The notes under the pieces: model-generated
What the model saw: only the letters and a program-made list of their open reading frames with translations
Database searches by the model: none
Told to the model about the DNA's origin: nothing
Position numbers and translations under genes: made by a program
Shown here: positions 4,159 through 19,677 of the stretch, in pieces
Layout of the letters: each line of letters begins with the position of its first letter
How positions within the stretch are numbered: the stretch's first letter is position 1
Source: a virus
Direction: 5' to 3' (one strand)
Length of the DNA: 24,962 nucleotides
IMG/VR virus record: IMGVR_UViG_3300047379_000111
Location: 1 to 24,962 of that record

Positions 4159-5748
4159 ATGGCAATTACATTACGAAATACTAAAGGGACGGCATTGACC
4201 CACGTCGAACTCGATGCCAACTTTACCACATTGCAGAACGCTGACTTAGATTCAGCTGCAATCACATCAATAGCGCAAGCTGCACAAGGTAGTATAAATT
4301 TAAATACTATCGCCGGTGATTCTGATATAAATTTTGGAACACATAAAATATTATATTCAAACAATTATGATTCAGCTGGCGCATTACCAGCTGCTGGAAC
4401 ATATCATGGTATGTTTGCTCATGTTCATTCCGAAGGTGCAGGATACATGGCACATGGCGGAGCTTGGGTGAAGCTTGCTAATTTTAGTGATGTCGGTACA
4501 GGAATCGACTCGGCTAAAACAATATCGCTTGTTGATTCGAATTATGTATCTGCTAGAATCGGTAGTGTAAGCGGACATACAGATATTAATATGTCTGGCA
4601 TTTCAAATAACCAGATCCTTAAATGGGATTCTGCTCAACAAATGTTTATAGCAGCTGCCGACGTAAGTGGCGGTGGTGGAGGCGGTGGCCTAGGATATGC
4701 TGACTTTAGTGTTTCTACAAATGCCGCAGGATCACCTACTCTATCATATAATAACGGTACAGGTGTATTCTCATATACACCTCCGGACTTGTCGAGTTAC
4801 TTAACAAGCTATACTGAAACAAACGATTTATCAGCCGCAGTTACTTGGACTAATATTCCTGATACAAATGTGCCAGAAAGTGCTGTTACTCAACACCAAG
4901 CAGCATTATCAATTACAGAAAGTCAGGTTAGCGATCTACAATCTTACATCACTGGTTATACCGTAACAGAAGGAGATGTAACTTCGCATCAAGCTGCACT
5001 ATCAATAACTGAATCTCAAATTAGTGATTTAGGAAGTTATCTTGCTAATGGTTCATCTATTGATATGAACGGAAATGAATTAGTAATGGATGCTGATGGT
5101 GATACATCATTCCATGCAAGTGTTGATGATGAGATTGACATTCGAGTCAAAGGTACAGATGTAGGTAAGTTTGACTCTGATGGTCTTATTATTAATTCGA
5201 TACGAACAAGTACAGCAGGAACACCTACGCTTACATCGTCATCTAATATTAATATGACAGTTGGCGGATCTGTTACTGTTTCGGGTGGTGGATTTAGAGT
5301 TGCTTCTCTTACCACATCTCAAAGAGGATCTTTAACTGCGGCAAACGGTGAGATAATTTATAACACTGATAATGGTCAGTTTGAGATCTATCAGCGTGGC
5401 GATTGGACAGCTATGACACGAGGCGCTTCGTTGTTTACACTTACAGCAAGCGGAAGCAGTCATTATATCTTTAATGATCCGGACGGTCATTGGTTTCCTA
5501 CAGGCGAAAACGATCCTTTGTTATATTTACGTAGAGGCGAAACATATTATTTTGTAAATAATTCTGGTGGTTCACATCCCTTTGAGATTAGAGCTAGCGC
5601 TGGTGGATCTGCATACAGTACAGGCGTAACGAATAACGGTAGCTCAAACGGTACTATTGTATTTAAAGTTCCAATGTCTGCTCCATCTACTTTATATTAC
5701 CAGTGTACTGCGCACGGATCAATGGGTAATACAATCAATATTATATAG
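4159..5748 (+). CDS. Tail fiber-like protein with C-terminal cupredoxin-like domain
   Basis: This 529-residue protein starts after a strong GAGGT site five bases before the ATG. Residues 10-27 carry the fiber N-terminal motif 'LTHVELDANFTTL'. Residues 80-106 hold a His-rich patch (H83, H88, H90, H99, with HVH = HxH) ending in 'AHGGAWVKL'. Residues 148-171 are a module also found in the large fiber at 20061. A run of glycines (171-177) is a hinge, and two 'HQAALSITESQxSDL' repeats start at 246 and 277. Residues 425-529 look like a cupredoxin: 'LRRGETYYFVNNSGGSHPFE', then 'YQCTAHGSMG'. H473, C516, H519 and M522 give the full type 1 copper ligand set with amicyanin-like CxxHxxM spacing. The fiber role is a family inference, and copper binding is predicted from the motif only. 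Confidence 0.8.
   Translation: MAITLRNTKGTALTHVELDANFTTLQNADLDSAAITSIAQAAQGSINLNTIAGDSDINFGTHKILYSNNYDSAGALPAAGTYHGMFAHVHSEGAGYMAHGGAWVKLANFSDVGTGIDSAKTISLVDSNYVSARIGSVSGHTDINMSGISNNQILKWDSAQQMFIAAADVSGGGGGGGLGYADFSVSTNAAGSPTLSYNNGTGVFSYTPPDLSSYLTSYTETNDLSAAVTWTNIPDTNVPESAVTQHQAALSITESQVSDLQSYITGYTVTEGDVTSHQAALSITESQISDLGSYLANGSSIDMNGNELVMDADGDTSFHASVDDEIDIRVKGTDVGKFDSDGLIINSIRTSTAGTPTLTSSSNINMTVGGSVTVSGGGFRVASLTTSQRGSLTAANGEIIYNTDNGQFEIYQRGDWTAMTRGASLFTLTASGSSHYIFNDPDGHWFPTGENDPLLYLRRGETYYFVNNSGGSHPFEIRASAGGSAYSTGVTNNGSSNGTIVFKVPMSAPSTLYYQCTAHGSMGNTINII
4894..5040 (+). repeat. Tandem 54-base coding repeat in fiber
   Basis: Two diverged 54-base units at 4894-4947 and 4987-5040 encode HQAALSITESQVSDLQSY and HQAALSITESQISDLGSY. 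The protein is conserved while most third codon positions differ, so this is an old in-frame duplication under protein-level selection. Such units are common spacers in phage fiber shafts. Confidence 0.75.
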
Positions 5749-5755
5749 GTAAACT

Positions 5756-7279
5756 ATGTCAGAAAAAGATTATATAATAGCAATGGAAAAAGGTCAAAGT
5801 AAAGACCTTTTAAAAGACGAACTCACAGCAGAAGCTGGAAACGATTACGTTCCGGCTCGATCTGTTGATGTAGTTTATAGCCGTGATGGTAGTAAGCGTC
5901 ATTTTAATATGGCTTTAACAGACGAAGAAGCTGAGACACTACGATCAGATCCAAGGGTTAATAGTGTACATACTCCTATTGAATGGTCTGATGACTTTTT
6001 AGATTTTGAATATAATCATAGAAATAATTGGGAACGACAAAGTAATAATACAAACCAGAATAACTGGGGATTATTGCGACATATTGAAGCAACAAATGGA
6101 TGGGGATCAAGTGTAACAAGTCAACGCGAGACTTTAAAATATACCGGGCATTTAGATGGTGAAGGCGTTGATCTAGTTGTGCATGAAGGAAATACTGCTA
6201 GATACGATCATGAGCAGTTTGCTGGTAGATATAATCAGCTTCAGTGGAATACATTACCAAATATGAGTGGTGCAAGTACTATTAATTACACAAGTTCAGA
6301 TTCATATGGCTATCACGCTACACACGTTTTAGGAACTATGGGAGGAGCGACTGTTGGTTGGGCACCGAAAGCTCAGTTATATAGTATGCCTGCTGATGCA
6401 ACAGACGGCATTGGTAATAGTACTTGGTGGTTTGATGCAGTAAAAGAATTTCATAAAAATAAATCAGTAGATCCTACTACAGGATATAGAAGACCAACCG
6501 TCGTAAATATGAGTTGGGGATATAAGACGTACCATTTTTATAGTGGCGTATCACTAGTTACTAATATTAATTATAGAGGTACTAGTACCGGAGCAACTGC
6601 TGCCAGTAGTTCATACGGTCTAATAGGAGATGGTTCTAACAGAATTAATTGCCCTATTTACGGATTACAATCTGAAGTAGAAGAAATGCAAGATGAAGGT
6701 ATCATTGTCACTAAGTCAGCCGGAAATCAATATCAAAAGCTAGACGTTGAAGGTGGCATAGACTACGATAATTATTTTACATCAAGTGCTACTCAAGGAA
6801 ACATTACTGCAGGAGATCCGCTTTATTATAATAGAGGTGCTAGTAATATCGGTGAACACACTATCGTTGTAGGTAATATGGATTCTCAATTATATTCTTA
6901 TTCAGAAGCTACAGCTACATCAAGTGAAAAAGGTCCTCGCGTTGATGTTTGGGCTGCAGGAACTGATATTGTAAGTAGTCATGATTACAGTAATAACTCG
7001 TATGCAAACCTTGATGGAACAAGTATGGCTGCACCACAAGTAGCCGGCATGGCCGCGCTATTAATGCAAATGAACCCAGGTATGACTCCAAAACAGGTCA
7101 GAGAATGGTTTATAAATAATGCTAAGACAGGCTTGATGTATGTTGGTGATACTGATAACACAAGTTATTTTACGAATAATAGAAATTTACAAGACGGATC
7201 AGGTAGAATTGCTTATTGGCCTTTTAGCGACCATAGGCCGATTAATCTCTCCGTCAACACCGAATATGTATCGTTTTAG
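5756..7279 (+). CDS. Subtilisin-family (S8) serine protease with propeptide-like N-terminus
   Basis: This 507-residue protein has an N-terminal region (about 1-77) like an inhibitor I9 propeptide: an opening strand 'KDYIIAM' and 'LTDEEAETLRSDPRVNSVH'. The S8 catalytic domain follows. The His motif is 'YHATHVLGT' (H187), the oxyanion Asn is in 'KSAGNQ' (N324), and the nucleophile is in 'LDGTSMAAPQVAGMAALLMQ' (S423). The Asp motif aligns at 'GEGVDLVVHEGNT', where E144 sits in place of the usual Asp. No signal peptide is seen. It follows the cupredoxin fiber by 7 bases (AGGT site), so the two are likely co-expressed late. Plausible roles are maturing a neighbouring fiber or cutting host surface protein. 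It is unlike the T4 prohead protease gp21. The family is certain; activity is uncertain because of the Asp change. Confidence 0.88.
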   Translation: MSEKDYIIAMEKGQSKDLLKDELTAEAGNDYVPARSVDVVYSRDGSKRHFNMALTDEEAETLRSDPRVNSVHTPIEWSDDFLDFEYNHRNNWERQSNNTNQNNWGLLRHIEATNGWGSSVTSQRETLKYTGHLDGEGVDLVVHEGNTARYDHEQFAGRYNQLQWNTLPNMSGASTINYTSSDSYGYHATHVLGTMGGATVGWAPKAQLYSMPADATDGIGNSTWWFDAVKEFHKNKSVDPTTGYRRPTVVNMSWGYKTYHFYSGVSLVTNINYRGTSTGATAASSSYGLIGDGSNRINCPIYGLQSEVEEMQDEGIIVTKSAGNQYQKLDVEGGIDYDNYFTSSATQGNITAGDPLYYNRGASNIGEHTIVVGNMDSQLYSYSEATATSSEKGPRVDVWAAGTDIVSSHDYSNNSYANLDGTSMAAPQVAGMAALLMQMNPGMTPKQVREWFINNAKTGLMYVGDTDNTSYFTNNRNLQDGSGRIAYWPFSDHRPINLSVNTEYVSF

Positions 7280-7312: not shown

Positions 7313-8299
7313 ATGACTCGGCAGAACATATCAACTGGCACTTTTGCTAACGATGGAAGCGGTGATACGCTTCGTCAAGCTGGTCAAAAGATTAATGAAA
7401 ATTTTGTTGAGCTATACAATAAACTTGGAGGAGATAGTGATACTCTGACAGGTTCTTTGACTGTTGCTGGTGGAGGTCTTCTTTTTGAAGGCGAGACTGA
7501 TGATACAAACGAAACAATTTTAAATGCTCAGGATCCTTCACAGGATAATACTATAACTTTGCCAAATACTTCTGGTAATGTTGTGCTTGACTCGGCCACA
7601 CAAACTCTATTAAATAAAACATTAACAAGTCCTACATTAAAAACTCCGCGCATTAATGATACATCATCGACTCATAACTATTTTGTTACTGTATCTGAAT
7701 TAGCAGCAGATAGAAATATTAATTTACCTATTTTAGCAGCTGACGATGTTTTAGTATTTAATGATCACGCTGCAACTCTGACAAATAAAACTCTTACGAC
7801 TCCAACAGTATCTCAGCCAAAAATTAGTGGCTACATTGCGGATGTTAACGGAGCTGAAGTTTTTGGTATTACTTCAATAGGAAGTGCAATTAATTATGTT
7901 GGTGTGCAAAATGCTGCTACCGGAACTAATCCTGTTTTAAGTGCGAATGGAGATGATCCTAACGTTAATTTAAACATGGCAGGCAAGGGTACTGGATCAG
8001 TAGAAATTGATAAAGGCGCACATGGCGTTTCTACAATTACGGCTACTGGAGCTGCGGATACTTCTAAATCGTTTATTCTATCTAATTCAGCAACACCAAT
8101 ATCTGTTTCTGTAGCTGACGGTACAACGGTAGGAGAATATAAGATATTTACAAATAAGAATGCTGGTGCTGCTACTATCACTCCAGCCAATTTTGGACCG
8201 GGAACTAGCATAGCTTTGAATAACAATCAAGGTTGTCATATGATTTGGGATGGTGGAAATTGGCAGTTGATTGGTAACAATGGCGGAACAGTGAGCTAG
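7313..8299 (+). CDS. Fiber-like structural protein
   Basis: This 328-residue protein is preceded by GAGGT seven bases before the ATG. The first 40 residues, including 'GDTLRQAGQKINENFVELYN', form an N-terminal motif shared by many marine phage fiber or neck proteins and probably anchor it to the particle. The middle holds two 'LNKTLTSPTLKTPRI / LTNKTLTTPTVSQPKI' repeats (about residues 102-117 and 155-170), typical of beta-rich shaft segments. The last 130 residues include 'NMAGKGTGSVEIDKGAHGVS' and end in 'CHMIWDGGNWQLIGNNGG', a compact beta domain often closing such fibers. A T4 gp9/wac-type role is possible, but no specific homologue is recognised. Confidence 0.7.
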   Translation: MTRQNISTGTFANDGSGDTLRQAGQKINENFVELYNKLGGDSDTLTGSLTVAGGGLLFEGETDDTNETILNAQDPSQDNTITLPNTSGNVVLDSATQTLLNKTLTSPTLKTPRINDTSSTHNYFVTVSELAADRNINLPILAADDVLVFNDHAATLTNKTLTTPTVSQPKISGYIADVNGAEVFGITSIGSAINYVGVQNAATGTNPVLSANGDDPNVNLNMAGKGTGSVEIDKGAHGVSTITATGAADTSKSFILSNSATPISVSVADGTTVGEYKIFTNKNAGAATITPANFGPGTSIALNNNQGCHMIWDGGNWQLIGNNGGTVS

Positions 8300-8309
8300 G
8301 GAATCTAAA

Positions 8310-9689
8310 ATGGTTGCAATTATTACAGATAGATTTAAGAAACAAATTCTAAATGATCTTTTTACAGATGTCACTGATTCAGCTGACACATACTATATTG
8401 CTATTGGTAGATCGCAAGATTGGAATGCTACAGACGTAGCCGTAACACCTACTAATACAGCAAAGACTGAAAGAGATTTTAGATCTAGTATGCAAGCAAT
8501 GAAAAAAGGTGAAGATGTTTCTTATGTGATTCCTCGTTACAACTGGTCTTCAGGTACAATTTATTCTGGATATGATGATCATGTTCAAGGTTATCCAACA
8601 AATGGATATTATGTTATGACTGACGAACTTGCTGTATTCTTATGCCTACAACAAGGGCGGGATGCACAAGGAAATGCAGTTGCTTCTACTATTAAACCAT
8701 CGGGATCATCACTAGATCCTCTTACTACTTCAGATGGTTATGTATGGAAATATCTCTATGGCCAAACTGCTTTGCGGTCAACAAAGTTTACATCGGCTAA
8801 TTATATTCCTGTACAATTTATCGACTCAGCTGGTGCATCGGCTCCAGCTCTTGAGCAAGAACAAAAAACGATTCAAAATGCTGCAATTCCAGGTCAGGTC
8901 GTAGGAGTTAAAATAGACAATGGCGGTTCAGGATATACATCTGCGCCAACTGTCGGATTTACTGGTAATGGTACAAGATCTCCGATAGCTACGGCTACGG
9001 TTTACAATGGTGCAATTGTAAAAATCGAGATGAATGATTCAGGCACAGGAAAGGCCTTTGGCGCTGGATATGATTATGGATCAGTAACATTTTCTGGTGG
9101 AGGTGGTACAGGAGCACACGGCCGGATGATATTAGCTCCAGATGCTGGAATAGGTGCCGATCCAAGAGAAGATTTAAGATCTACCGCTCTTATGTTTAAT
9201 ACTAAGCTTGAAGGTGATGAAAATAATGCATTAATTACAAGCAACGATTTTAGGCAGGTAGGACTTATTAAAAATCCAGTAGAAACAGATTCAGCATCAA
9301 CCGGTGCATTATTCACTGCTCCTGCAGGTAATGTTTTAAATAAATTAAAGTTTGGTTCTATTGCACAAAATTTTAGTGAAGATAAAACCATTCAAGGATC
9401 TACAACAGCTGCAAAAGCATATGTAGATAAATTCGATTCAAACTATGTTTGGTATCATCAAACTGATTCCACCGGTTTTCTTTTATTTCAAGAAGGTGAG
9501 ACAGTTACTGAGTTAGACGGTAATGGTGAAGGCATTCTTGATTCTGCATCAGTTGATGGAGATAATGATGCATATACTAAATCTACAATAAAACCTTTCT
9601 CTGGAACACTATTATATGTAGATAATAGGGCTGCGATTGAAAGAGATCCAAACCAAACCGAAGACATTAAAGTTATTATTCAGCTGTAA
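8310..9689 (+). CDS. 8: Baseplate wedge protein gp8
   Basis: This 459-residue protein matches the gp8 family. The N-terminus 'IITDRFKKQILNDLFTDV' with 'YYIAIGRSQDW', and 'SDGYVWKYLYGQTALRSTKF' at about 141-160, are the usual landmarks. T4 gp8 has 334 residues; the excess is explained largely by a glycine-rich insert at about 204-272 with the pattern 'GGSGYTSAPTVGFTGNG' and 'VTFSGGGGTGA', a beta module found in several phage structural proteins. gp8 is a dimer at the outer wedge that helps bind gp6 and gp7 during assembly. An AGGGA site precedes the ATG. It lies 9 bases before the giant baseplate gene. gp8 identity is firm; the role of the insert is unknown. Confidence 0.88.
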   Translation: MVAIITDRFKKQILNDLFTDVTDSADTYYIAIGRSQDWNATDVAVTPTNTAKTERDFRSSMQAMKKGEDVSYVIPRYNWSSGTIYSGYDDHVQGYPTNGYYVMTDELAVFLCLQQGRDAQGNAVASTIKPSGSSLDPLTTSDGYVWKYLYGQTALRSTKFTSANYIPVQFIDSAGASAPALEQEQKTIQNAAIPGQVVGVKIDNGGSGYTSAPTVGFTGNGTRSPIATATVYNGAIVKIEMNDSGTGKAFGAGYDYGSVTFSGGGGTGAHGRMILAPDAGIGADPREDLRSTALMFNTKLEGDENNALITSNDFRQVGLIKNPVETDSASTGALFTAPAGNVLNKLKFGSIAQNFSEDKTIQGSTTAAKAYVDKFDSNYVWYHQTDSTGFLLFQEGETVTELDGNGEGILDSASVDGDNDAYTKSTIKPFSGTLLYVDNRAAIERDPNQTEDIKVIIQL

Positions 9690-15563: not shown

Positions 15564-16583
15564 ATGGCAGTCGTGAGGCCAATGAAAAGAGTTGGCTCTG
15601 ATCTTGGAGTCATGACTTCAGCCGAAGTAACTCAAATCATTGATGAATGTATAAGATTATATGGCAATAGTCCTGGGGTAAGCTTAACTGTTACTCCAGA
15701 TGCTGCAGCAACATCTTATGAGCAAAAGCTAGGTACTCTTATTGACAGACGTATGCCAGCCGGTCCTGTTCAATCATCTTCTATTCCAAACGTTGCTGGT
15801 ACTAGTGTAGCTCCTTCTGCTTATATTGCCGTAAATTATATTAATACTTTACAAAGATACGAGTATGAATCTACTGCTTTTCCATATAAAGATCGTGCTG
15901 GCAGTTCATATCAAAGCTATTCTTATCCTGTATTTTATGACCACAATAGTAATTATATCAGAGCAATGAGTCGGGTAGATATATATGATACTTTTATTTC
16001 GCCGGCGCTTACGCGATTAGCGAGTGGAACCACGACTCCCGCTGATAATGCAGGAACATATTTTGTTGCAACTTCCACATTACAGCCAGATGCATCTTTA
16101 GTTTCTTCAACCCCTGTTGCAAAAGATACCATATCAGATATAACTGCTTTCGCAACTGGTAGTTTACCAGAAATTGTAGATCAGCCCGATGCAGCTGAGA
16201 CTAGTTGGTATTTACATCGCGTTAATACTCCATCCGAAGGTACAGTTCCTTTGCCTCTTACAATATTTGATGAAGGCTTAAAAACATTAGACAAACCTAA
16301 ATTTAGAGATATGCTTTTAGATTTAATGCTTTATTGGTCGTATGATCCTGCAGGTACTACTGACACGGCTATACGATATCAGTACGGCAATAGTTCTTAC
16401 CTTAGCGGACTTAGTATGAATACAAGAGGTTCCGGTATAACAGATACATATGTAGCAGGAACTGTTGAAAGAACTGATCAAAACGCACCTAATCCAAATG
16501 CGACTGCATATTACGCGCAACAAGTTCCAACCGGGACTGCGACAGTAGGAAGTACAAATTATTTAGGAATAGGTTTATTCTAA
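15564..16583 (+). CDS. Virion structural protein, unknown function
   Basis: This 339-residue protein starts one base after the preceding stop. It has no recognisable catalytic motif, signal peptide or membrane segment. It is rich in Ser, Thr, Tyr and Ala. Notable segments are 'GTLIDRRMPAGPVQSSSIPN' near residue 55, an aromatic mid-region 'SSYQSYSYPVFYDHNSNY', and a helical 'KFRDMLLDLMLYWSYDPAG' near residue 250. The composition and the location within a tail operon suggest a structural protein. I recognise no specific homologue. Confidence 0.7.
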   Translation: MAVVRPMKRVGSDLGVMTSAEVTQIIDECIRLYGNSPGVSLTVTPDAAATSYEQKLGTLIDRRMPAGPVQSSSIPNVAGTSVAPSAYIAVNYINTLQRYEYESTAFPYKDRAGSSYQSYSYPVFYDHNSNYIRAMSRVDIYDTFISPALTRLASGTTTPADNAGTYFVATSTLQPDASLVSSTPVAKDTISDITAFATGSLPEIVDQPDAAETSWYLHRVNTPSEGTVPLPLTIFDEGLKTLDKPKFRDMLLDLMLYWSYDPAGTTDTAIRYQYGNSSYLSGLSMNTRGSGITDTYVAGTVERTDQNAPNPNATAYYAQQVPTGTATVGSTNYLGIGLF

Positions 16584-16596
16584 TGAAAGGTATATT

Positions 16597-17547
16597 ATGG
16601 CAAGATTTTCAAATAAGATTGAAAGCTTAAGATACGCTGATAGACAACATAAGTCTATAGAGATCCTATACAAGAACGGCGAAACAATAAATCCATATTA
16701 CATAGAAGTTGATTATAATAACCAAGACTTTTTAGATCTCTTGGAAGAATATTCTATTGATGACATAGAAGATCAAACAAGAATATATTATGAGAATATT
16801 AATATGCGAACTGAAAATGCTGTTCTTGATAAAGCCACTGAAATGTTTAAATCGTGGATTAAAAACGCACAAATAGATTTAGATAAACAAGACGTAGAAA
16901 GATATGAGTTATTTGAAAGATATAAAGAAGGACAACTTGTTGAAGCTGATGCACAAGTAGAACGTAGAGTTCAAGAAGGATACGAAGGTGTACAAGCAGA
17001 AGTAGATCGTCAAGTAGAACAAAGATTAGAAGAAGGATATAAAGGCATTCAAGCCGCTATAGATGAACAGTATAAAGAAGTTGAAACATATAAAGAAGAA
17101 CAACTAAAAATATTACAGGCTGAAGTTGACGAACAAGTAGAAAGACGTGTTTCTGAAGGATTTGCTGATGTTGATGCATATAGAGAAAAACAATTATCAG
17201 TTCTACAAGCGGAACTCGATCAGCAAGTAGAACAAAGATATAAACAAGCTGATGAATATAAAGATAGTCAGGTTAGTATTATTCAACAAGAAATTAAAAC
17301 GGATTTATTAAGCAAATTTAATGTGCCTACTCAGCCGACTATATCATATACTCCAGAAAAAGTTGCTAAATATATGATAGATAATTTTAAAGATGAAGAT
17401 ACGGTATTTAAAACTAAATTACAAATTTTTAATTTGTCTGAGGTTAAAAACAGCAAAGACCGTGAAATGAAAATGAAAGTACGTAAAGCAAAAACCGTAC
17501 CTGAAATATTTGCAGCATATTATGATATTCAATGTAATCACAGTTAA
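16597..17547 (+). CDS. Coiled-coil repeat protein
   Basis: This 316-residue protein starts after an AAAGG site. The N-terminal 70 residues form a small acidic alpha/beta domain ('HKSIEILYKNGETINPYYIE', 'SIDDIEDQTRIYYENI'). Residues 100-235 are a long Glu/Gln/Lys/Arg-rich helix built from diverged repeats whose core reads QVExRxxEGxxxxQAExD. The C-terminal 70 residues are again compact and basic ('KDREMKMKVRKAKTVPEIFA'). The layout, two end domains joined by a rod, suggests a trimeric or dimeric stalk or whisker, or a scaffold. Its 3' end overlaps the first glycosyltransferase gene by 26 bases. No function can be assigned. Confidence 0.7.
   Translation: MARFSNKIESLRYADRQHKSIEILYKNGETINPYYIEVDYNNQDFLDLLEEYSIDDIEDQTRIYYENINMRTENAVLDKATEMFKSWIKNAQIDLDKQDVERYELFERYKEGQLVEADAQVERRVQEGYEGVQAEVDRQVEQRLEEGYKGIQAAIDEQYKEVETYKEEQLKILQAEVDEQVERRVSEGFADVDAYREKQLSVLQAELDQQVEQRYKQADEYKDSQVSIIQQEIKTDLLSKFNVPTQPTISYTPEKVAKYMIDNFKDEDTVFKTKLQIFNLSEVKNSKDREMKMKVRKAKTVPEIFAAYYDIQCNHS
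16954..17293 (+). repeat. Degenerate coiled-coil coding repeats
   Basis: Encoded residues 120-232 contain four related units: QVERRVQEGYEGVQAEVD, then QVEQRLEEGYKGIQAAID 19 residues later, then a unit starting at QVERRVSEGFADVD, then one starting at QVEQRYKQADEYKD, with linkers of the type 'YKEEQLKILQAEVDE'. Bases differ more than residues, so they are old duplications. Confidence 0.75.
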
Positions 17548-18226
17548 GTTTGGTAACAAATATGATTCTGAATTTGTTAATAGACTTTTTAGAGAAATTT
17601 GTTATTTTAGCAGAGGCTATTATGTAAACGGCTGGTTTAAGTTCTATTGCTATACAGATAATCCAGAAGGATTAATGCATGGTATTAACGTTATTCCTGC
17701 AAAAACAGATCCAACATTAAAAGGCGTATGGAATAAGCTACGCCTCTTTGATCCTTCTATGCCATATGTAAGAGAAGGACATTACAACATTTACTTAGAT
17801 TTAGACACGTTTGTGCAAGATTGCATCTTTACACGTTTCAGTCATTTCGGTGAAAAGGACTGGAGTACACTTCACGTGTGTGGCGCGCCGTGGAAAAATG
17901 ATAAAAAAAGATATGGTAGACTATCTAGTTATGATGTAAATATACATAGTTCTGTGATGTCGTGGAATGCTCTAAGCCAATTTGAAATATGGAATCATTT
18001 TAACAATCATGGTTTACGTGATTATTATATGAGAAAATACTCGGGTGGCATGGATAGATTCTTGGCTCATGAAGATGTAAATATGAAAACGTTCAAGCGT
18101 GATTTTGTAAGATCTATGAAATACGATAAAAATATAAAAGATGCAGCTATTGTATCATTTGAGGAACTAGATGTACGATTCGGAGATCTTATACCGAACT
18201 ATAAAATTAAGCGAGAAAGTGTATAA
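17522..18226 (+). CDS. Glycosyltransferase-like protein (GT-A, DxD)
   Basis: This 234-residue protein is taken from the ATG at 17522; a TTG at 17510 adds four residues. It begins with a strand typical of sugar-nucleotide folds, 'MIFNVITVKFGNKYD', and 'KFYCYTDNPEG' near residue 40, which is GT8-like. The metal and donor-binding motif is 'NIYLDLDTFV' with DLD at 93-95. 'HSSVMSWNA' and 'MDRFLAHEDV' follow at the usual acceptor-side positions. It should transfer a sugar from a nucleotide donor in the cytoplasm of the infected cell. It overlaps the coiled-coil gene by 26 bases and the methyltransferase by 56, so the genes form a coupled unit. The acceptor (virion protein, host glycan or DNA base) cannot be read from sequence. 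Confidence 0.7.
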   Translation: MIFNVITVKFGNKYDSEFVNRLFREICYFSRGYYVNGWFKFYCYTDNPEGLMHGINVIPAKTDPTLKGVWNKLRLFDPSMPYVREGHYNIYLDLDTFVQDCIFTRFSHFGEKDWSTLHVCGAPWKNDKKRYGRLSSYDVNIHSSVMSWNALSQFEIWNHFNNHGLRDYYMRKYSGGMDRFLAHEDVNMKTFKRDFVRSMKYDKNIKDAAIVSFEELDVRFGDLIPNYKIKRESV

Positions 18227-18794
18227 CGAATCTATGTATGGGGTAGATGATCTCTATCGCATAAAAGATTTATCTCACTCTATGGATTATAATCATTGGG
18301 TTGGAAAAGAACATCTTGCAAAAAAGCTTTGTGAATTATATAATCATGACGCCGGTAAATTATTAGTACTCGGCGGGTGGTACGGCATGATGGCTTATCA
18401 ATTACGTAAGCAATGGCCGCAAAAACAAATGAATATAGAATCTACCGATATGGATCCTATGTGCGAAGAGTTTGGATATGAATTATTTGGTGATGAAGAC
18501 ATTACATTCTCCACCCTCAACATAAGTGACTCTTTTATTATAACACAATATACAGGGATTGTAAACACCTCTTGTGAGCATATGGAGCAAAAAGATTTAA
18601 TTAATATAGTTAAATCAAAAGACCCTAGCTGTTGGGTTGCTTTCCAGTCAAATAACTATACTGACTTAGATTCTCATGTTAATTGTTATCCTACAGCCGA
18701 GATGTTTGCAGAAAGTTTAGGTCTCGATTGGGTTGCTGATGTTGATACTTTAGATCTAGGTGACTTTCAAAGGTTTACAGTCATTGGAAAATAA
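18171..18794 (+). CDS. Class I SAM-dependent methyltransferase-like protein
   Basis: This is a 207-residue protein with Rossmann-type methyltransferase marks. Motif I is 'LLVLGGWYGMMAYQL' at 64-78, the acidic ribose-binding position is in 'ESTDMDPMCE' at 90-99, and 'GIVNTSCEHME' at 129-139 matches a conserved motif of phage methyltransferases found with glycosyltransferases. The start at 18171 has a good GAGG six bases upstream but lies inside the preceding gene (56-base overlap). ATG 18234, eight bases after that gene's stop, would give 186 residues and keep all motifs. It is flanked on both sides by glycosyltransferases, so a sugar or glycosylated protein is the likeliest substrate. No DNA methyltransferase catalytic motif (DPPY or PC) is seen. 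Confidence 0.68.
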   Translation: MYDSEILYRTIKLSEKVYNESMYGVDDLYRIKDLSHSMDYNHWVGKEHLAKKLCELYNHDAGKLLVLGGWYGMMAYQLRKQWPQKQMNIESTDMDPMCEEFGYELFGDEDITFSTLNISDSFIITQYTGIVNTSCEHMEQKDLINIVKSKDPSCWVAFQSNNYTDLDSHVNCYPTAEMFAESLGLDWVADVDTLDLGDFQRFTVIGK

Positions 18795-19677
18795 AGTAGT
18801 ATTCAGTATTTTTATTGATATTCCTGAAGATCGTTTAGATAATCCAGGATGGTGGGAAAACGGCAAACAGGTCACGACAGATAAAAGTAAACAAACCAAG
18901 TTAGCTTTACTTAATAATGCTGAACTTGTAACTGAACGACAAAAACAATACGCAAACGATATAGGTGCTGACTATATACTATTTCAGTATGATAGTACAT
19001 ATAAAAATTTCTTCGATGATATAAAAAATAGGTTTACAGAGATCTCAGAATATGATATAGTAAACTTTTATAAGCATCGAGTAATGAGGGACTTAGCTGA
19101 TGAATATAATTATGTATGTTATCTCGATTTTGATGTTGTACCAAATACTACTGACTGTATATTTCAAGTACATAATGTAGATAAAATGTTAGCGGTTGCT
19201 GAATCTAATAGATTGGCAATACGTGGTAAAGTTATGAAAGCAGAAGATTACAGCCTTTGCATTCGTAATCCTGCCACAAAATATTGGAATACTCATGCTC
19301 TTCTCATGGAAGAAGGATATGATCCAGAAAATGACGTGTTTAATACCGGGATTATGGCGGCATCATCAGAAGTAATTAAACGACTAGATTATTTTCGTGA
19401 CTTTGATTATATTATAAAACTTATGAGTGAAGTAAAACACGATGAGTTTTCGATGTATCCAAAAAATATTCAACGAGTATTTAATTATGATAACGAAACC
19501 GTCTTTTCATACTGGGTCAAAGCTCGAGAAATTCGAATACAATATATGACAAAAGAATGGCATTGGCTAGTAGATGAATTAATAACTGAGCCAAAACATA
19601 TAGATCCTAAAGCAAAAATATATCATTTCATAAACAAGAAAATGGAGTGGATAGAAGATATAAATAAGAACAAATAA
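18784..19677 (+). CDS. Glycosyltransferase-like protein (GT-A, DxD)
   Basis: This is a 297-residue protein if started at TTG 18784, which has AAAGG ten bases upstream and places the first strand 'KVVFSIFIDIPE' at the N-terminus. GTG 18760 would add eight residues and lacks a ribosome site. The donor and metal motif is 'YVCYLDFDVVPN' (DFD at 115-117). 'VFNTGIMAASSEV' and 'NYDNETVFSYW' supply the usual downstream acidic and asparagine positions, and 'IYHFINKKMEW' closes the domain. It overlaps the methyltransferase by 11 bases. It is longer than the first glycosyltransferase and not an obvious copy, so the two probably add different sugars. The target is unknown. Confidence 0.7.
   Translation: MENKVVFSIFIDIPEDRLDNPGWWENGKQVTTDKSKQTKLALLNNAELVTERQKQYANDIGADYILFQYDSTYKNFFDDIKNRFTEISEYDIVNFYKHRVMRDLADEYNYVCYLDFDVVPNTTDCIFQVHNVDKMLAVAESNRLAIRGKVMKAEDYSLCIRNPATKYWNTHALLMEEGYDPENDVFNTGIMAASSEVIKRLDYFRDFDYIIKLMSEVKHDEFSMYPKNIQRVFNYDNETVFSYWVKAREIRIQYMTKEWHWLVDELITEPKHIDPKAKIYHFINKKMEWIEDINKNK
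19659..19666 (+). promoter_or_regulatory. T4-type late promoter box (TATAAATA)
   Basis: An exact TATAAATA lies within the last codons of the glycosyltransferase gene (encoding DIN of DINKNK), 29 bases before the ATG at 19696. The spacing matches the box before 23412, so it probably drives the beta-sandwich and large fiber genes independently of the enzyme island. Confidence 0.75.

Follow-up and report, generated by a model that had tools for sequence, protein, structure and literature searches.

The catalytic acid of subtilases has, to our knowledge, been treated as aspartate with no exceptions. An open reading frame on the plus strand (5756–7279) of a 24,962-nucleotide stretch of viral DNA, referred to here as the window, encodes a subtilase-like protein with glutamate at this position (Glu-type). 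The locus raises the question of whether the protein carries a working Ser-His-Glu triad or is a disabled protease, and the original prediction had left these two readings side by side.

The reading frame is intact at these coordinates and encodes 507 residues. Its assignment to the subtilisin family was upheld by a match to Pfam Peptidase_S8 (PF00082) of 96.9 bits (E 1.7e-27, cut-off 21.8) and by a predicted model (mean pLDDT 71.5) with a subtilisin fold, to which aqualysin I was matched with a Z of 30.9 and an rmsd of 2.7 over 267 aligned residues. All 26 members of alignment A1 also matched Peptidase_S8, with E values up to 0.1. The best PHROG family for the window protein was 9158, of unknown function (E 1.9e-57). 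The protein is a subtilase homologue in which the fold has been kept; however, because the defining Asp of the canonical triad is missing, it is filed as a variant and not as a standard member of the family. The region ahead of the domain had been described as an I9-like propeptide. By fold this description held for residues 1–80 (5756–5995, plus strand), as this segment, modeled alone (pLDDT 79.8), is predicted to adopt a beta-alpha-beta-beta-alpha-beta order and its best PDB matches were subtilisin propeptides (3whi_B, E 4.9e-3; 1scj_B, 3cnq_P and 1spb_P). By sequence, the score for Pfam I9 (PF05922) was below the cut-off, at 14.3 bits against 21.2.

In the predicted model, strand 139–144 ends at Glu144 (codon GAA, 6185–6187), helix 186–196 begins at the catalytic base His187 (6314–6316) and helix 422–439 begins at the nucleophile Ser423 (7022–7024), a placement that agrees with expectation for a subtilase. 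The oxyanion-hole residue is Asn324 (6725–6727), and Asn251-Met252-Ser253 (6506–6514) is the counterpart of subtilisin 123–125, whose role is described in PMC11593635; all of these codons lie on the plus strand. Glu144 aligns with the catalytic Asp in each of the Asp-type homologues that cover the site. The predicted combination of Glu in the Asp motif with canonical His187, Asn324 and Ser423 was therefore confirmed by the residues, the alignment and the model. A sequencing error or chance was ruled out by the 43 distinct sequences of the Glu type, 42 of which have GAA as codon 144 and one GAG. An alignment artefact was ruled out by the aligned outgroup Asp and the identical strand end, and a single odd phage by the 61 loci of the first viral scan. 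The extra residue that had been noted before the DHEQF segment is real (Glu144 to His152). It was rejected as a hallmark, since most Glu-type relatives are without it and some Asp-type proteins have it.

Viral contigs were scanned to assess how widely the Glu type occurs. The first scan yielded 61 loci and an alignment of 61 rows (60 loci and the window), in which position 144 was Glu in 58 of the 59 rows covering it. The lone Asp row (L060) is an Asp-type paralogue located 3' of a shortened Glu-type copy, with which it shares its contig. Cyanophages and single-virus records contributed homologues of 24–33% identity, and all 18 proteins extracted from them had Asp. Pooling the window with the loci from four viral scans and with the phage records gave 218 distinct S8 rows; the contigs are mostly partial, and further states at the acid site are possible, since two of the searches retained the 80 top-ranked hits out of more than 500. 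Within that sample, 168 rows read Asp-His-Asn-Ser, 43 read Glu-His-Asn-Ser and seven lacked at least one site, with no other letters at the four sites and with His, Asn and Ser invariant in every covering row of either type. Counts of distinct sequences are unaffected by contigs fetched twice under different locus names, whereas per-locus counts are affected.

In a tree of 117 rows (<90% identity), 27 of the 28 Glu rows formed one clade inside the Asp-type family (SH-aLRT 100); the tree search was a quick one, and the clade sits on a long stem (0.57). The 28th Glu row, outside the clade, is a long-branched third S8 copy on contig L024, which carries three S8 genes. No close cellular relative was found in a genome scan. 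The cellular S8 background comprised 84 ORFs from 80 loci, a sample biased by the search pattern, with Asp identified in 62 by motif search and in 14 by eye. The remainder had Gly in the motif (1), were too short (1) or had no His-Ser pair (6). A believable Glu acid was found in none of the 84; two pattern scans produced one Glu call apiece, both spurious. The gene psbA was absent from all 11 large related contigs, a result that speaks against cyanophages without favoring a particular host. By gp6 and gp8, the nearest named phages were C48C1, Melnitz, HTVC008M and Mosig; of these, C48C1 and Melnitz have no annotated S8 gene in the baseplate region.

The Glu is fixed in the clade. Column 144 was Glu in 42 of 42 distinct clade rows and never back to Asp, a reversal for which a single base change would suffice, and both Asp and Glu occurred in 5 of the 26 mainly acidic columns of the clade. 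Median dN/dS was 0.22 for the Glu genes, 0.16 for the window's branch and about 0.28–0.29 for the Asp genes of tandem pairs. The Glu gene had the lower value in 267 of 297 contig pairs, which share sequences and are not independent. Codons for Ser423 were split between TCN (23/42) and AGY (19/42); such switching carries little weight as evidence because the tree requires only two changes.

A second substitution accompanies the Glu. Immediately after the catalytic His, where all Asp-type homologues have Gly, the window has Ala188 (6317–6319, plus strand), and Ala is found throughout the Glu clade. Among 215 rows of the pooled sample, the acid and this residue were Asp-Gly in 171, Glu-Ala in 43 and Glu-Pro in one, with no other combination; the Pro belongs to the third copy on contig L024. 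Two more residues are specific to the Glu clade, namely Gln325, which follows the oxyanion Asn, and Asn364, which replaces a Pro. The coupling is no general rule, as cellular S8 proteins (L201, L251, L231 and L254) have Ala or Ser after the His yet keep Asp. In solved subtilases, according to PMC11593635, the acid segment 31–34, His64-Gly65 and 123–125 form one locked unit, in which the carbonyl of Gly34 contacts the C-alpha of Gly65 (Table 2 there). Given this contact, the coupled change from Gly to Ala would fall where a longer acid needs room.

Many Glu-type genes are accompanied by an Asp-type gene. For 31 of the 42 distinct and full-length proteins of the Glu type, an Asp-type S8 gene lies downstream, and in 23 of the 31 pairs the stop codon shares one base with the start codon. 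Such tandem genes, mostly with overlapping stop and start, are seen at L048 (3119–6261), L053, L013 and other loci. The 11 proteins with no downstream Asp-type copy are those of the window's branch (8) and of L010, L012 and L020, all on partial contigs. In the window, no second S8 gene occurs within 17.7 kb downstream. Searches of whole records returned a single S8 match, the Glu copy, in each of nine window-branch contigs and in L010, L011, L012 and L020, which are fragments, and two S8 matches in each of three tandem controls.

A second phage S8 family was collected with the third copy of contig L024 (3455–5218) as query, giving 78 loci (L342–L419) and 72 distinct rows. It shares with the window protein a Glu alongside intact His, Asn and Ser; however, it is a separate lineage with Pro after the His, and both acids occur in it. 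Of its 72 distinct rows, 55 cover the acid site, with Glu in 44 and Asp in 11. The rest of the site did not vary (His 54/54, Asn 55/55, Ser 61/61, Pro after His 54/54). A tree built with the acid column excluded requires at least four Asp/Glu changes, and its supported branches force at least three, outgroup counted. Repeated exchange of Asp and Glu with the rest of the site intact is expected of two functional acids; a disabling Glu would not predict it.

The gene order in the window is gp25, gp6, a wedge protein, a connector-like protein, S8, a gp9/10-like protein and gp8, which bears out the claim of a baseplate operon. Directly 5' of the S8 gene lies a tail fiber/baseplate connector-like protein (phrog_677; 4159–5748), the constant neighbor of the Glu type. 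Downstream are a gp9/10-like baseplate protein (7313–8299; T4_gp9_10_N) and a gp8-like baseplate wedge protein (8310–9689), all on the plus strand. Counted per locus, with some contigs present twice, a connector homologue was directly 5' of the S8 gene in 80 of the 83 Glu-type cases for which an upstream ORF was identified. The connector's C-terminal domain (5374–5745 in the window, plus strand) was matched upstream of 80/83 Glu-type and 7/150 Asp-type genes, and 76 of the 150 Asp-type genes had another S8 gene upstream. This domain is fused to S8 in the cyanophages S-H9-1 (35% identity) and S-MbCM7 (33%), and the C-terminal part of PHROG 9158 matches it. The S-SCSM1 homologue (L066, 5657–8086), a distant Asp-type protein of 27.6% identity, has an S8 domain followed by a lectin-like Laminin_G_3 domain and carries the GenBank note 'virion protein'; in the S-SCSM1 paper, mass spectrometry is reported to have identified 45 virion proteins. 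Connector adjacency, the cyanophage fusion and the lectin-like domain and virion note of S-SCSM1 favor a protease mounted on the tail. The proposed link to the neighboring fibers gains support from adjacency and fusion, with the fibers themselves staying candidate substrates.

Several other features of these loci were observed. The C-terminus of cyanophage S8 proteins that shares the connector domain gave weak plastocyanin-like Pfam matches, and the S8 protein of S-MbCM7 (L070, 4498–5916) is extended by an esterase-like stretch, also with weak Pfam matches. A Glu-type S8 gene at about 8001 in L036 and L039 encodes 816 residues, of which about 316 form a C-terminal extension; in L039 this extension matched no Pfam or PHROG family. 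In the window, consecutive tail-region genes at 15564–19677 had no PHROG match, and those scanned had no convincing Pfam match; two of them appear glycosyltransferase-like by eye only. The gene directly 5' of gp25 (37–702) had no PHROG or Pfam match and is possibly a gp53-like wedge protein by its position.

Comparison with known systems places the Glu type within the subtilases. Canonical subtilases (PF00082, of the proteinase K/aqualysin type) share its fold, motif order, His, Ser, oxyanion Asn and I9-like propeptide fold. They have an Asp acid and Gly after the His, whereas the Glu type has Glu and Ala and has lost the Ser/Thr/Asp-Gly pair that follows the acid. The cyanophage S8 genes of PHROG 9158, such as PSSM2_297 (T4-GC 292), belong to the same family and have the same tail/baseplate neighborhood; however, members from named records have Asp in 18 of 18 extracted proteins, and several carry the connector C-terminal domain fused. 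Alpha/beta-fold hydrolases such as glucuronoyl esterases and cholinesterases are known to work with a Ser-His-Glu triad; these have an unrelated fold and are esterases and not subtilases. The S53 peptidases (kumamolysin) have a subtilisin-like fold in which a Glu is involved, and the original prediction had drawn on them. That analogy was wrong as stated. According to PMC11593635, the S53 triad is Ser-Glu-Asp, with Glu replacing the His base and an Asp acid on the base helix, and Glu32 of kumamolysin lies in the segment from which subtilases supply their acid (Table 1 there). The Glu type retains the His base, and membership in S53 (sedolisins) was rejected because His187 is kept in all rows. 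No Ser-His-Glu subtilase, natural or engineered, was found in the literature searched, which lay mostly outside subscription papers, so activity of such an enzyme would be without precedent in print.

The most likely reading, with a probability of roughly 0.57, is that the ORF encodes a protease that is made as a zymogen, associates with the tail and works through a Ser-His-Glu triad. Fixation of the Glu, the intact His, Asn and Ser, strong purifying selection and the Asp/Glu exchange in the second family all favor it. Between the two original readings, this evolutionary evidence favors the working triad, short of proof, over a pseudoprotease. In a pseudoprotease, the change to Glu would have disabled catalysis, the fold being retained for a structural or receptor-binding role in the baseplate while the Asp-type paralogue does any cutting. 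This is unlikely. The paralogue found 3' of 31 of 42 distinct Glu-type proteins could have freed the first copy from catalysis, and a structural role would likewise be compatible with the slower evolution of that copy. However, His, Asn and Ser are invariant in all Glu-type rows, the second family swaps its acid repeatedly and never loses them, and no Asp-type copy was found in the window's branch or in L010, L012 and L020 (partial contigs).

Conserved active sites can also persist for self-cleavage or binding alone. PCSK9 cleaves only its own propeptide and is thereafter a binding protein. A Glu-type enzyme that acts in this way has a slightly smaller chance than a pseudoprotease; the predicted propeptide fold and the fully conserved active site are consistent with it, and PCSK9 is among the structural matches. 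However, according to PMC11593635, PCSK9 deviates from other subtilases at the equivalent of Ser125 (Pro288), a position at which the Ser (Ser253 in the window protein) is kept by every Glu-type row. PCSK9 also has the catalytic Asp and is therefore uninformative on Glu. It is very improbable that another acidic residue completes the triad with Glu144 as a bystander. Asp292 might be considered, being invariant in 27 Glu-clade rows and variable in sister Asp-type rows, but it lies in a loop before helix 305–313 of the predicted model. Asp139 is no substitute because it is invariant in Asp-type rows too. Glu144, by comparison, occupies the Asp column at the expected strand end, and its fixation would be left unexplained.

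The lineage that changed from Asp to Glu is thus probably a naturally rewired enzyme that still works. Under this reading, a marine T4-like phage expresses a subtilisin-fold zymogen from its baseplate operon, and the change of the catalytic acid has given a Ser423-His187-Glu144 triad with a normal Asn324 oxyanion hole. Glu144 would orient and charge His187, as Asp32 does in subtilisin, and its longer side chain could be accommodated by a remodeled loop after Glu144 and by Ala in place of Gly after the His. The propeptide would aid folding and then be removed by the enzyme itself. The mature protein may be placed with the neighboring connector/fiber on the baseplate, where it would cleave host surface proteins or trim tail proteins. 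The analysis establishes the sequence, its conservation, the coupling, the gene order and a predicted fold, whereas catalysis, propeptide cleavage, virion location and substrate of the Glu-type protein are steps that we infer.

We consider the chances about even that this is the first natural subtilisin-fold lineage with a working Ser-His-Glu triad. Such a triad would have arisen at least twice in marine phages, once in a family with repeated Asp/Glu exchange and once in a family with a strictly coupled Gly-to-Ala change beside the His, with Glu and Asp enzymes often paired in one tail operon. A lineage with fixed Glu, often with an Asp sister gene, and a second family that toggles between the acids make the tolerance of the triad for its acid directly testable. 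The same two families allow a test of what compensates for the longer acid side chain. A Glu-type S8 protease would also point to the use of proteases in the tails of marine phages.
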